Assembly: GCA_949840905.1 (NCBI GenBank)
Contig: CATKXW010000020.1
Coordinates: forward strand, 1-43,606
Direction of reading: 5' to 3'
Length of the DNA stretch: 43,606 bases
From: an uncultured Eggerthellaceae bacterium
Lineage (GTDB): Bacteria; Actinomycetota; Coriobacteriia; Coriobacteriales; Eggerthellaceae
The position numbers and the translations under genes are program-made. The notes under the pieces are model-generated. The model worked only from the letters and a program-made list of their open reading frames with translations, did no database searches and was not told the origin of the DNA. This document shows, in pieces, positions 5,851-17,423 of this stretch. Positions within the stretch are counted from its first letter, which is position 1; every line of letters starts with the position of its first letter.

Positions 5851-5914
5851 GGATGACACAGGACGGGGATAATGTCATCAGCCTTGATGACATTATCCCC
5901 GTCCTGTGTCATCC
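5851..5914. repeat. REP family A, paired inverted copies (perfect 30-base arms)
   Basis: Two copies of the repeat face each other: 5851-5880 and 5885-5914 are exact reverse complements with a 4-base loop GCCT. The core GACGGGGATAATGTCATC recurs at 7201-7261, 10158-10186, 11021-11049, 16583-16610 and 17277-17305. Extra partial copies of the outer end (TGTCATCC, TGCGTCATCC) trail to about 5950. This is a BIME-like arrangement; the RAYT gene at 10185-10991 is the likely mobilising enzyme. Confidence 0.85.
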
Positions 5915-6096
5915 ACTCTGTGTCATCCACTGCGTCATCCTCATCCTGCGTCGTCGAGGGCCGTCCCCTTGACTCCTCAAGCTGCTTTCGAAGCCCGGAT
6001 CGTGCAGCTGAGACCACGCAGAATGCAACCATCCGTTTGCAGCCTTGTACGTCGCTGCGCCCACCCCTATGCTCTTCAACAAAGGAAAGGACATGG

Positions 6097-7064: not shown

Positions 7065-7200
7065 TCGCCCTCTCGCCAAAGACGATATGAGGCAATGCGC
7101 ATGCCAATGCGCAGGTGCGGATCAGACGTCCGCTCCTGCGCCGGCTCAGTGTCCTAGCTGGATCGAACTACACAACACGGGAAGCCGTCGGAGATGACAG

Positions 7201-7261
7201 TGACGCAGGACGGGGATAATGTCATCATCCAGGATGATGACATTATCCCCGTCCTGCGTCA
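7201..7261. repeat. REP family A, paired inverted copies
   Basis: 7201-7230 and 7232-7261 are exact reverse complements (30-base arms around one central A). The core is the same GACGGGGATAATGTCATC as at 5851-5914. This copy uses the TGACGCAG variant of the outer end instead of TGACACAG. It lies in an otherwise empty intergenic region. Confidence 0.85.
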
Positions 7262-7480
7262 TCCAGAGGCGACCAAAAGCCCGGCGTTATGCCCGCGGCC
7301 GCCCATCAGCGCCCATCAGCACAGCGGGCGATTCTCTGCGCTATAGCCGGTTCTCCGTACTGCCTTGGAGCATATCCAGCCTCACACCCATCTGATGCCC
7401 CCTCGCTGCGCCAAAAGAGAACGCCTCCGGCACGTCTCGGTGTAGAATCCTGACAAGCGATCGTTAGGAGCAAAGCCCGC

Positions 7481-10094: not shown

Positions 10095-10157
10095 GAAACG
10101 CAACCTGATCGATCGCCGGCTGAACACAGGAGCCGAACATGACACAGGAACATGACA

Positions 10158-10186
10158 GGATGACACAGGACGGGGATAACGTCATC
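10158..10186 (+). repeat. REP family A, left bracket of the RAYT gene
   Basis: One 29-base copy of the repeat, with ATAAC in place of ATAAT. It overlaps the stop codon of the reverse-strand RAYT gene. Together with the opposite-facing copy at 11021-11049 it frames the gene in inverted orientation. Confidence 0.8.
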
Positions 10187-10991
10187 AACGAAGAGAAGGC
10201 ATCGGGCATTTCTGGATGATACCCCTTCCGACCCCCGTAAGCCTCTCGATTTGCCGCACCGACAGCCCCATACCTCGCAAGCGCCCGATCACCGCGTCGC
10301 GCTCTTCCTTTGGCGACGCAGCGATCGAGTTGGCGAATTCGTCCCCGCAGAGCTTCTTCGCCATCTCGACCGCTTCCCCGTCGGAGACCGCTTTGCGCCT
10401 CAGCGAGGAAGCGCCACCGTAGGTGGCGAACTCCATCAGCTCCTGGTCGTCGACCACGTCGTCGTGGAACGCGATGAACGCCTTCGCGCCGCCGAGCATA
10501 TCGAGGACGGTATCCACCTCCAAACGAGGGTGCCCCTCAAGGTAGAACTTGAAACTGCTCCACTCGTGATCGCGATGCGCACATACGCCAGCGACTTGAG
10601 GATTGTGGTGAATATAGCGGACGGTCTCGAGCAGCTGAGCATCCGTTCCTATGGGAATGCTCTTGTACCTGTCCTGGAACACCGGGCCCACATGCCCGTG
10701 GCGCCCGTTATAGTAGCGCGCGAAGGACGTATTGAGAGAGCGCATCAACGACTCAAGGTCTCTGAGCCGCACGCGCAGCAGCAGATGCACGTGGTTCTCC
10801 ATGAGGCACCACGCCAGCAGGTCAACTTCCCCCTCCCCTCTGCCTACGTATGCGAAAAGCCTTTCGACGAAGAACCGCCGGTCCTCGTCATCTTCGAAGA
10901 GCAGGCGACGCCCTGCGCCTCGAACGATAACATGATAGATGTCGCTGGAAGATTCTTCACGCTGCCTTCTCGTCATGGCTTTCCTTTCCAT
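10185..10991 (-). CDS. REP-associated tyrosine transposase (RAYT, TnpA_REP, Y1/HUH)
   Basis: A single-strand DNA transposase of the IS200-like HUH superfamily. The 268-residue protein has YHVIVRGAGRRLLFEDDED at the start of the Y1_Tnp domain, the HUH metal motif in MENHVHLLLR (His67, Val68, His69), and RYIHHNPQVAG, whose Tyr126 is the probable nucleophile. The C-terminal 80 residues end in a helix-turn-helix-like segment (LSVRQIERLTGVGRGIIQ), as RAYTs often do. The gene is flanked by inverted copies of a REP found at several other sites in the window, which is the diagnostic context. RAYTs are usually domesticated or vertically kept rather than freely mobile. It looks intact. Confidence 0.9.
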   Translation of the reverse strand: MERKAMTRRQREESSSDIYHVIVRGAGRRLLFEDDEDRRFFVERLFAYVGRGEGEVDLLAWCLMENHVHLLLRVRLRDLESLMRSLNTSFARYYNGRHGHVGPVFQDRYKSIPIGTDAQLLETVRYIHHNPQVAGVCAHRDHEWSSFKFYLEGHPRLEVDTVLDMLGGAKAFIAFHDDVVDDQELMEFATYGGASSLRRKAVSDGEAVEMAKKLCGDEFANSIAASPKEERDAVIGRLRGMGLSVRQIERLTGVGRGIIQKCPMPSLR

Positions 10992-11020
10992 TCGTTTTCG
11001 CTCGCCATCTTGATCCTTAC

Positions 11021-11049
11021 GATGACATTATCCCCGTCCTGCGTCATCC
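11021..11049 (-). repeat. REP family A, right bracket of the RAYT gene
   Basis: A 29-base copy in opposite orientation to 10158-10186, followed by two partial outer-end copies (CCTGCGTCATCC near 11054-11065). Confidence 0.8.
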
Positions 11050-11113
11050 TTCCCTGCGTCATCCTTCCGATGGAGCCGATGACCGGCATGGTAACTCGTC
11101 TCAAAAACGATCA

Positions 11114-11168: not shown

Positions 11169-11646
11169 ATGGAGACGATGTCCATGGAAGAAAAGCGCTA
11201 CACGATAGGCCAGGCGTCCGGCATGCTGGGGACATCTTCGTCCACGGTCAGATACTACGAGGCCAAGGGTCTGCTTCCCAACCTAGGCCGCACCGAGGGA
11301 AGCATTCGGACCTTCACCGATGGGGATCTTGATCGGATGAGGCCCATCTGACACTTGAAGATGTCGGGGGATGACCATCGGTGAGATACGCGAGTTCATG
11401 AGCCTCTATCAACAAGGTGATGAGACCATCGATAAGAGGCGCGCCTTCGTGCAAAAAAGGCGCGATAAGATCGAGCGCCATCTGGAAGAACTCAAAGGTG
11501 CTCTCGACTTCATCACCTACAAATACCGGCACTACGGTACGGCAGCAGAAGCAGGAACCTGCGATGCTCCTCACAACATGAGCGAAGATGAGATGCCTGC
11601 GGAAATAGCGACCATAAAACGAAAATGCCGGATCAGCTCACGCTGA
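11169..11646 (+). pseudogene. MerR-family regulator, broken by an in-frame stop and a frameshift
   Basis: The N-terminal part has a clear MerR helix-turn-helix (YTIGQASGMLGTSSSTVRYY, then EAKGLLPN). Translation stops at TGA 11349-11351, between DRMRPI and HLKMSG. The reading then shifts by one in a run of five G (11366-11370) before MTIGEIREFMSLYQQGDE, the expected continuation of the effector/coiled-coil part, which runs to 11646. Two independent lesions argue against a single sequencing error. Likely starts are ATG 11169 or ATG 11184. In life it would have controlled its own promoter and that of the aldo/keto reductase operon. Confidence 0.8.
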
Positions 11647-12437: not shown

Positions 12438-12525
12438 GTCGGCTCCCTGAACGCATTTCCCGATCGCGCTGCTTGCTATTGTTCGGAAGCATGTGCGAGC
12501 AGCGCGATCATATGAAGTCTGCAGA

Positions 12526-13226
12526 CTATCGGACCTCTTCCATCCATGTGTCGATCTCCTGCCGAGGGGCATTGCTCGCGAAACGCCTGCCCTCGCCCCA
12601 CTCGGCCTCTGGCGCGGCGGCATGAAGCTCGTCGATGCTTCCCGAGACAGGGCTTGAACCCGACGTGCAGGAGGGAATGATCCGCTTTCCCGTCGCATCG
12701 ACGCCTTCTAAGAACGTAAGGATGACGCGCGGTGCCTTGCCCCACCAGATGGGGTACCCGAGATACCCACCAGATGGGGTATCCGAGATAGACCGTGCCC
12801 CATTCCGCAATATCCGGGACGGGGCTTGCCAGAGCGGGGCGCGCGCTTCCGTTCTCCTGCTCGAAGTTCGCGCGGCGATCGGAGTTGTAGTCGAGGTCTT
12901 GGGCGGTATAGGGCTCGGCAGCCTCGATGCGCGTGAGCTCGCCATCTGCAGCCCGAGCGACCTTATCCGCCACCGCCTCGGTGTTGCCGGTACAGGAGAA
13001 GAATACGACAGCTGTTGCGTGATCGGAGGAAATCGGCTCTTCCTGAGGTGCGGATGACGATCCTTGCTGTGCGCTGCTCGAGCTGCTCGTCTCATCCTCC
13101 TGTTCCCGATGATCCTTCGAGCTGTTCGAGCTCGGCTCTGCCGCGCATCCGACCGAACCCCGCTGTTGCGAGCGCGCCCACGCCGATGCATCCCATCTTC
13201 AAAAGGTCTCGCCTGCTAACCGGCAC
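12526..13226 (-). pseudogene. Flavodoxin-like lipoprotein with Tat signal, broken by two frameshifts
   Basis: Reading down from a GTG start at 13226 (AAGGAGGAG just upstream, overlapping the end of the aldo/keto reductase gene) gives SRRDLLKMGC, a twin-arginine signal, then a hydrophobic stretch. The expected lipobox and Ser-rich linker (GCAAEPSSNSS) continue only after a one-base shift near 13145-13155. The flavodoxin core follows (VVFFSCTGNTEAVADKVARA, VYLGYPIWW), then a 25-base tandem duplication at 12741-12790 shifts the frame again, after which PRVILTFLEGVDATGKRIIP and a normal C-terminus ending at 12526 can be read. As it stands, no full-length product is made. It would have been an exported FMN protein acting with the reductase upstream. 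Confidence 0.8.
12741..12790. repeat. 25-base tandem duplication inside the flavodoxin gene
   Basis: Units 12741-12765 and 12766-12790 differ at one base (ACCCGAG versus ATCCGAG). Because 25 is not a multiple of three, the duplication shifts the reading frame right after the conserved LGYPIWW motif, which is itself duplicated. Confidence 0.9.
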
Positions 13227-15639: not shown

Positions 15640-15829
15640 AGAAGGCCCTGTCTGGCGACATGAGGGAACGTGAACGGCTGCTCGTAAGGCACGGATATAA
15701 ACCCCCATTTCAGAGCGGGATGTAAAGAGCTTTCGACATCCTTGTTGCCCTTGATGGAAGCCATGTTAAGCATCTTTGGTGGTAAGTTGTATCGCAATGC
15801 TGGAGCCTCGTCTCGGAAGGGAGGTGCCG

Positions 15830-16447
15830 ATGGAGCTGCCGAGGCAACTAAGGGCTAACCGCGAACGCTTGGGCCTGTCCCAGGAAGACGTTGCGCACGC
15901 GATATACGTGTCGCGCCAGACGATGTCCAGCTGGGAGAGGGGCAAGACCTATCCCGACGTGCAGAGCCTCATGTTGCTCAGCCAGCTTTTCGGCGTCTCC
16001 ATCGACGAACTCGTGAAAGGAGACGTGGTTTCAATGAAGGAGATGGTCAGCAAAGATGCGGTGGTGATGGAGAGGATGGCGCTCGGATCTGTAATGCTCA
16101 TGCTCATGGGCATTGCCTGCATGGTCGGGCTGAACGCCGTCTGGAAGGACTCCTCGCCGGTGCCGTACATGTCGATCGGCTCTCTTGCGGGAATAGCTGC
16201 GATGGCCGCATTTTGGATCCCCTCGCTCGTGCTTTCGATGCGGATAGAGAAGATCAAGAAGGATCATAGCCTGGTGACCTACCGCGAAATCAGCGCCTTC
16301 ATGGATGGCGAGGAGATTCCCGAGGAGAGCAAGGCGCTTTCCAGAAGCAAGCCCCTGCTGTCCAATATCGTGAAGCTTGTCTGCGGTGCCGGTATTGGGC
16401 TGATCGTCGCATTCGTTCTCACGCTCATCGTCAATGCGCTGCACTAG
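15830..16447 (+). CDS. XRE regulator fused to a membrane domain
   Basis: The 205-residue protein has an N-terminal helix-turn-helix (residues about 6-62; LRANRERLGLSQEDVAHAIY, SRQTMSSWERGKTYPD, VSIDELVKGD), a linker, then two closely spaced membrane segments (about 85-105 and 115-138) and another near the C-terminus (180-203). Such proteins are thought to be membrane-tethered regulators responding to envelope state. ATG 15830 follows AAGGGAGGTGCCG; a longer reading upstream lacks a ribosome binding site. It stands alone. Confidence 0.85.
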   Translation: MELPRQLRANRERLGLSQEDVAHAIYVSRQTMSSWERGKTYPDVQSLMLLSQLFGVSIDELVKGDVVSMKEMVSKDAVVMERMALGSVMLMLMGIACMVGLNAVWKDSSPVPYMSIGSLAGIAAMAAFWIPSLVLSMRIEKIKKDHSLVTYREISAFMDGEEIPEESKALSRSKPLLSNIVKLVCGAGIGLIVAFVLTLIVNALH

Positions 16448-16489
16448 CCGCCGATGCGAAGACCGCCGTCCTGCGTCACTAGCGTCACT

Positions 16490-16610
16490 AGCGCACAAGA
16501 CCCTCCGCTGCTGCAACACTAGCGCTAGCGCGCAAGACCCTCCTCTGCTGCAAGATGCTCGATGACGCAGGATGACGCAGCAGGATGACGCAGGACGGGG
16601 ATAACGTCAT
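16490..16610. repeat. 27-base direct repeats, then REP family A (single copy)
   Basis: AGCGC(A/G)CAAGACCCTCC is the start of a 27-base unit present at 16490-16516 and 16527-16553. Then the outer end of REP A is repeated in tandem (GATGACGCAG at 16561 and 16571), leading into one REP copy at 16583-16610. These fill the gene-free stretch 16448-16769; otherwise only the ribosome binding site of the next gene is visible. Confidence 0.7.
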
Positions 16611-16769
16611 TTCTTTGCGCCATCCCCTGGCTCGCTCGCGCTCAGCGGGAGGTGCTTTGCCTCATCACCTCTCAAAAACGTTAGAGACCGGTAAGGCAAA
16701 TCGATGGCGGCTGCAGCATCGGAGCGGCATCATCGCCTTACGGATTAGAACGACCAAGGAGAGTGACCC

Positions 16770-17141
16770 ATGAGCAAGCAGAGAACGATGGTGATCGCAT
16801 CAATCGTTATCGTCGGATTAGTGGCGGTTCTTCTTTTTGCCGCGTCGATGACGAATTTGCTCTTAGTTGGCGACTACTACGTCAGGATCGATAACGCCTG
16901 CGTTTTTGAGAATGAGCCAAGCGGTGGAGTTATCAATTTAGGGTCGAGCGAGCCGTACCTCTACGAACTTGAGGCAGTCAACGCGACAGGAGACAAGGCT
17001 GAGATAAAATTCGGAACCTCTCGAGAACTGCGCCAGGATGCTTTTATAAAACTGGACCTTCAGCCGATTCGCGGGGTCGTCGGATGGTCGGAAGTCTCAA
17101 AAGATGCGCTTCCAACCAATGTTGCAGAAGTCCTTGCGTAA
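16770..17141 (+). CDS. YxeA family protein (DUF1093)
   Basis: The 123-residue protein has one N-terminal membrane or signal segment (residues about 7-32), then an extracellular small beta domain. The family pattern is clear: a Tyr-rich start (GDYYVRIDN), YLYELEAVNATGDKAEIKFG, the basic T/S-SRELR element, FIKLDLQPIRGVVGWSEVSK, and DALPTNV at the end. Function is unknown. AAGGAGAGTGACCC precedes the ATG. It lies alone between two oppositely facing REP A copies (16583 and 17277). Its base composition is lower in GC than its neighbours, so it may be a recent arrival. Confidence 0.85.
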   Translation: MSKQRTMVIASIVIVGLVAVLLFAASMTNLLLVGDYYVRIDNACVFENEPSGGVINLGSSEPYLYELEAVNATGDKAEIKFGTSRELRQDAFIKLDLQPIRGVVGWSEVSKDALPTNVAEVLA

Positions 17142-17276: not shown

Positions 17277-17305
17277 GATGACATTATCCCCGTCCTGCGT
17301 CATCC
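17277..17305 (-). repeat. REP family A, single copy with partial copies
   Basis: One copy in the orientation opposite to 16583-16610, so the pair flanks the YxeA gene as inverted repeats. Partial outer ends (TGCGTCATCC) continue to 17345. Confidence 0.8.
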
Positions 17306-17423
17306 TGCGCCCTGCATCCCCTGTGCGTCATCCCTGCGTCATCCTCCGAGCCGATTTGATTCCACCCTGTCCTTGGGCGTACTATGGACGCATCTTCTTC
17401 CCGACAAGGAGCAAGGGAACAAC

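Follow-up and report, generated by a model that had tools for sequence, protein, structure and literature searches.

The transposase gene and its facing repeats

The window, meaning the whole 43,606-nt stretch that was analyzed, carries on its minus strand a gene (10185-10991) for a 268-aa HUH Y1 transposase of the RAYT/TIRYT type, with HVH at residues 67-69 and Y126 in YIHHNP. The protein matched PF01797 (2.4e-11) and scored 61.8 bits against the NCBIfam model REP_Tyr_transpos (NF047646), under its cut-off of 80, which is the curated threshold of one model and not a biological feature. H67, H69, Y126, and N130 were invariant in 14 aligned sequences. The structure model built from a seven-sequence alignment (pLDDT 76; the single-sequence fold was poor, with pLDDT 39.5) had as its top fold match 4ER8, the E. 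coli RAYT-REP complex (E 4.2e-5, TM(target) 0.67), and IS200/IS605 transposases ranked after it. A profile search also returned E. coli TnpA_REP 4ER8 as the best solved structure (E 6.8e-4). The C-terminal end (RLRGMGLSVRQIERLTGVGRGIIQK) was conserved, and it is helical and HTH-like in the model. No Pfam HTH (Bac_DnaA_C, HTH_23, HTH_28) matched this protein, and sub-threshold HTH matches fell at the same place in relatives; based on those matches and the model, a C-terminal HTH is a tentative assignment. An IS200/IS605 insertion sequence was considered and rejected, as one full copy was found and the second unambiguous Y1 gene has 46% identity to it and a repeat of another type. Matches to the transposase on plasmids or in PHROGs were distant or none, and viral contigs held only distant relatives of it.

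Inverted copies of a repeat bracketed the gene. The downstream copy (10158-10186, plus strand) overlapped the transposase stop codon (10185-10187), the upstream copy (11021-11049, minus strand) faced it, and 834 nt lay between the two. This arrangement, the stop codon overlap, and six further repeat sites had been described in a sequence-only reading of the locus, and all were confirmed: GGATGACRCAGGACGGGGATAAYGTCATC had 8 matches in the window (18-mer, ≤3 mismatches) compared to 0.02 expected in shuffles. The two perfect hairpin pairs of that reading were likewise recovered, each with 30-nt arms. One spans 5851-5914 (5851-5879 plus, 5886-5914 minus, 4-nt centre) and begins 12 nt past an EamA-like transporter gene; the other spans 7201-7261 within the repeats at 7198-7226 (plus) and 7236-7264 (minus), with a 1-nt centre. 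What had been listed as single copies at 10158, 11021, 16583, and 17277 were correctly placed starts of the 29-mer, but they make up two further facing pairs, and the 8 window copies of the 29-mer form four face-to-face pairs. The quoted core was present but not exact at 10158 (...GATAACGTCATC, 1 mismatch) and 16583 (...GATAACGTCATT, 2 mismatches). A degenerate ninth half-copy, with the 5' half only, was located at about 16457-16478 (minus strand).

The fourth pair (16583-16611, plus; 17277-17305, minus) had members about 667 nt apart and enclosed a YxeA/DUF1093 gene (16770-17141). From the layout, one idea is that this pair could delimit a transposon with the YxeA gene as its cargo. Elsewhere, homologues of the gene had the upstream region in common, no repeats, and different neighbors. 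Adjoining this repeat cluster, two 29-nt units (CTAGCGCACAAGACCCTCCGCTGCTGCAA) at 16488-16553 were 93% identical and 37 bp apart. We also considered AAC/AAT variants as marks of the left and right ends; this was true at the RAYT locus and in Rubneribacter avistercoris but failed in genome G152 and in the G001 remnant described below.

The outer end of the repeat had been noted as iterated at several sites, and this was borne out in the window and extended to relatives, where the 5' half TGACRCAGGA is iterated on the outer side of copies. In the window, such half-repeats lay beside the first dimer (5915-5953, minus), adjoining the downstream (10124-10157, plus) and upstream (11050-11066, minus) bracketing copies, and beside the copies at 16583 (16561-16582, plus) and 17277 (17306-17348, minus). 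Among 113 copies from the window's genome and related genomes, 56 had an isolated extra 5' half no more than 60 nt away on the outer side and 15 had one on the inner side, compared to a baseline of 3% of random 60-mers. Because the distance from the last half-repeat to the copy varied from 8 to 58 nt, a fixed footprint seems a less likely source of the iteration than slippage or imprecise joining.

Each copy is an imperfect palindrome in which a 6-bp stem surrounds a loop of ~16 nt with AGGACGGGGATAAY. The stem comprises TGAC/GTCA and two outer base pairs, and the latter covaried across 112 distinct copies: Watson-Crick pairs occupied the first two outer positions in 85/112 and 55/112, compared to shuffle means of 49 and 38. 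No covariation was found farther out in the 112 copies, and since TGAC/GTCA was in the search pattern, the covariation evidence is limited to the outer pairs. The hairpin of a single copy was weak (-4.1 kcal/mol, z -1.8); dimers folded into very stable hairpins (-37 kcal/mol). That stability and the intergenic position of the repeats would fit transcription terminators or mRNA hairpins under selection, with the transposase incidental or domesticated, and RAYTs have been proposed as domesticated in other settings. However, repeat identity follows the transposase, copies bracket the gene itself, and copy number among relatives ranges from 0 to 50, and we consider such a role improbable.

Copy number in the genome and its relatives

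Pattern searches of the 1.98-Mb genome to which the window belongs returned 10 copies, 8 of them in one 11.5-kb stretch of the window; the only other pair was on contig C15. With one pair outside the window, 3 of the 4 loci that do not flank the transposase gene therefore lie within 7 kb of it (binomial P about 1.4e-6, for a model picked post hoc). The sequence-only reading had looked to a genome-wide count, and the outcome was divided: near absence elsewhere in this genome counts in part against a dispersed repeat family, whereas relatives carry 17-50 dispersed copies. The low count would be an artefact if the window's contig (C20) were a binning contaminant. The genome is a draft of 44 contigs; however, the same repeat family occurs on C15, the composition of C20 is in range, and the congener G001 carries both a RAYT remnant (65% identical) and 24 copies of the repeat, which together make contamination an unlikely explanation.

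Cognate copies were also in excess near the transposase, more mildly, in unrelated repeat families (G004, P 0.007; G055, P 0.03), and G152 showed a weaker excess of copies near its cognate gene. A broader rule, that repeats cluster near any RAYT, was rejected: the transposase close to the repeats in G068 and G107 is non-cognate, and these genomes were not counted for clustering because that transposase has a different repeat. Alternatively, a single transfer could have brought in the cluster as part of a donor genome rich in repeats, in which case the clustering would be due to transfer rather than local spread. This explanation is possible, though we do not favor it. Consistent with it, the neighboring genes are accessory and have 80-84% DNA identity to genes in other Eggerthellaceae genera, GC content along most of the window is 59% compared to about 62% in most sampled contigs, and relatives hold dozens of copies. 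However, the gene order was not seen in any genome of the family, the tetranucleotide profile was within the range of the genome's other contigs, and a one-time transfer does not sit well with the milder near-transposase excess in G004 and G055.

The second RAYT-like gene of this genome (G000:C24:12178-12930, 46% identical) was bracketed by another repeat (AGACAAAGGG..TAATGTCTCAT), of which three further, diverged copies lay within 6.5 kb.

The window's repeat was present in 11 of 138 genomes of the family. Dispersed copies numbered 50 in G018, 24 in G001 (the only congener), 21 in G024 (37 including a 25-nt form), and 17 in G004. A search of about 85,000 species, which may omit the window's own genome, placed the 18-nt core in Eggerthellaceae (Rubneribacter, Gordonibacter, MAGs); outside this family it returned only six lone, unpaired core matches in other phyla or classes. 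We found no reports of such systems in Eggerthellaceae in the open-access literature.

The proposed association of repeat and RAYT held in the window's own genome, where the gene is bracketed, but not in G018 and G001, which carry the repeat without an intact cognate transposase. No Y1 transposase was found in G018 despite its 50 copies, and the intact transposase of G001 goes with another repeat. REPs are known to persist after RAYT loss. In G001, a pair (C32:5506/5681) brackets a 40-codon remnant of the RAYT C-terminus, 65% identical, which is an internally deleted derivative bracketed by repeats. Many of the G018 pairs enclosed mosaics of other repeats, including another inverted-repeat family (GTGACAGGGGGACGTACGCTTTTGACAC).

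About twenty related genes in the order were arranged in this way, with a repeat particular to each gene, and inverted repeats of their own type bracketed most of these transposase genes. The three closest proteins (55, 55, and 50% identity) had the same repeat core as the window. Over 24 loci, protein and repeat divergence were correlated (Mantel r 0.40, P 1e-4), also when the three closest proteins were left out (r 0.22, P 0.01). G004 held 43 copies of its transposase's 33-bp palindrome, 34 of them identical, and G055 held 45 copies of its repeat, many as dimers spaced by 40 and 53 bp. Dimers of a sister subfamily had a constant 67-bp spacing in four genomes. The near-perfect palindrome of G004 (TGGCATAAAAGGGGACWGTCCCCTTTTATGCCA, seen on contig C1) has its cognate RAYT-like gene at 327616, and with its identical copies dispersed over a complete 3.4-Mb genome, the family looks recently active.

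Comparison with known repeat systems

Identity with a canonical REP, as put forward in the sequence-only reading, was not upheld, as the GT[AG]G foot was absent from all 24 repeat families compared, the window repeat included. TIR/TIRtron is therefore a closer name than REP. Di Nocera et al. 2013 (PMC3733652) described TIRtrons as a RAYT-like gene (TIRYT) with moderately abundant, non-GTAG inverted repeats; the main text has no mention of Eggerthella, Slackia, or Coriobacteria. Here also, non-GTAG inverted repeats flank a RAYT-like gene, and in TIRtrons such repeats often form dimers or clusters and sometimes overlap the gene end, as in the window. The window repeat differs in reading GGGGATAA rather than GGGGWSAS, a sequence that holds for the majority of TIRtron repeats and not for all, and in its 6-bp stem and 16-nt loop. 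Among the 24 repeats compared, GGGGWSAS was exact in 4 and GGAC was present in 18.

The E. coli residues that contact GTAG are W94, Q95, E100, H101, and R104 (Quentin et al. 2018, PMC6006769). By alignment, the corresponding positions here are F105, Q106, S111, I112, and G115, with Q alone retained. In that study, subclass 2.1 corresponds to Bertels group 1 and probably equals TIRYT, and no REP-like sequences were found near 2.1 genes. The window protein resembles subclass 2.1 in its Y---NP motif, its putative C-terminal HTH-like domain, and the replacement of the GTAG-contact motif, a placement made by features and not by the profiles of Quentin 2018. It differs in that the repeats are clear here and dispersed in relatives. 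The layout, the missing GTAG foot, and the altered guide residues fit a placement as TIRYT. A canonical GTAG-type REP/RAYT system would account for the bracketing inverted repeats, the dimers, and a best fold match to the E. coli RAYT. However, with the foot in 0/24 repeat families and only the Q of the contact residues kept, we regard it as very unlikely.

Some properties of canonical systems were nevertheless shared. Nunvar et al. 2010 (PMC2817692) reported REPs concentrated near rayt in four proteobacterial species, within stretches as long as 200 kb, interpreted the clustering as preferential REP production near the gene after its acquisition, and found rayt 3' ends caught between REPs. 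The window resembles these REPtrons in its inverted repeats around the gene, local accumulation, repeat at the stop codon, and co-divergence of repeat and protein, and the trapped 3' ends resemble the G001 remnant. In contrast, REPtrons have GTAG REPs and occur in gamma- and betaproteobacteria, and the region here is about 11.5 kb with another repeat type. Copy numbers above 100 are typical of canonical REPs, compared to 10 here. The REPINs of Bertels & Rainey 2011 (PMC3116915) are likewise facing dimers, and constant spacings were found here in the sister families; however, the window dimers differ in their centres and are too few for a replicating population.

Proposed mode of spread and insertion sites

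Taken together, these data most probably reflect a TIRtron-like REP/RAYT system whose HUH nuclease acts in trans to mobilize the repeats, caught at a stage of low copy number and local seeding. Where the DNA is single-stranded, probably on the lagging-strand template of a replication fork, each copy would form a short hairpin of about 6 bp that exposes the loop AGGACGGGGATAAY. The enzyme would cut and re-join at the hairpin through Y126, as the family suggests for both cleavage and the exact nick site, and repeats would be moved or copied in trans, often as facing dimers. At low copy number, new repeats may land preferentially near their own gene by short-range spread. Movement of the repeats was not observed. 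More tentatively, the locus could represent the founding stage of a subclass 2.1 repeat family, in which the loop (AGGACGGGGATAAY) is recognized instead of a GTAG foot and facing dimers are seeded by short-range single-strand transposition, before genome-wide spread as in Rubneribacter and other relatives.

A TIRtron-like system at this locus would extend TIRYT/RAYT repeat systems to gut Eggerthellaceae and tie repeats that are clear, dispersed, and dimeric to a subclass (2.1) described as "REP-less". Some relatives have the transposase and others lack it, and with copy numbers of 0, 2-4, 10, 17-24, and 50 they offer a natural series in which to ask how such families arise, expand, and persist beyond the loss of the enzyme.

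Array size at one orthologous site differed between Rubneribacter badeniensis (2 copies) and R. avistercoris (4 copies). The two genomes shared 1343 nt at 100% identity that ended in this array, which reflects either recent exchange or strong conservation. At the RAYT locus of R. avistercoris, the right flank was repeat-free in two congeners and the left flank was unmatched; the RAYT locus of G031 had no counterpart in its congener. Thus, no complete two-sided empty site was found for the two RAYT loci examined.

Two genes of the window had interrupted reading frames. The MerR-type regulator gene beside it (11184-11620) was broken, with the frame from 11184 ending after 55 codons and the remainder in another frame, owing to either a frameshift or an assembly error. 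The Flavodoxin_4 gene (12476-13191) was split over two frames, and a 25-bp tandem duplication at the junction (12741-12765/12766-12790) would cause its frameshift. Farther along the window, an HTH gene (15776-16447) is followed by the repeat. In G031 (C11:34633-36246), a RAYT-like gene lies directly 3' of the orthologue of this HTH gene, and the site after the gene is possibly an insertion hotspot shared by G031 and the window.
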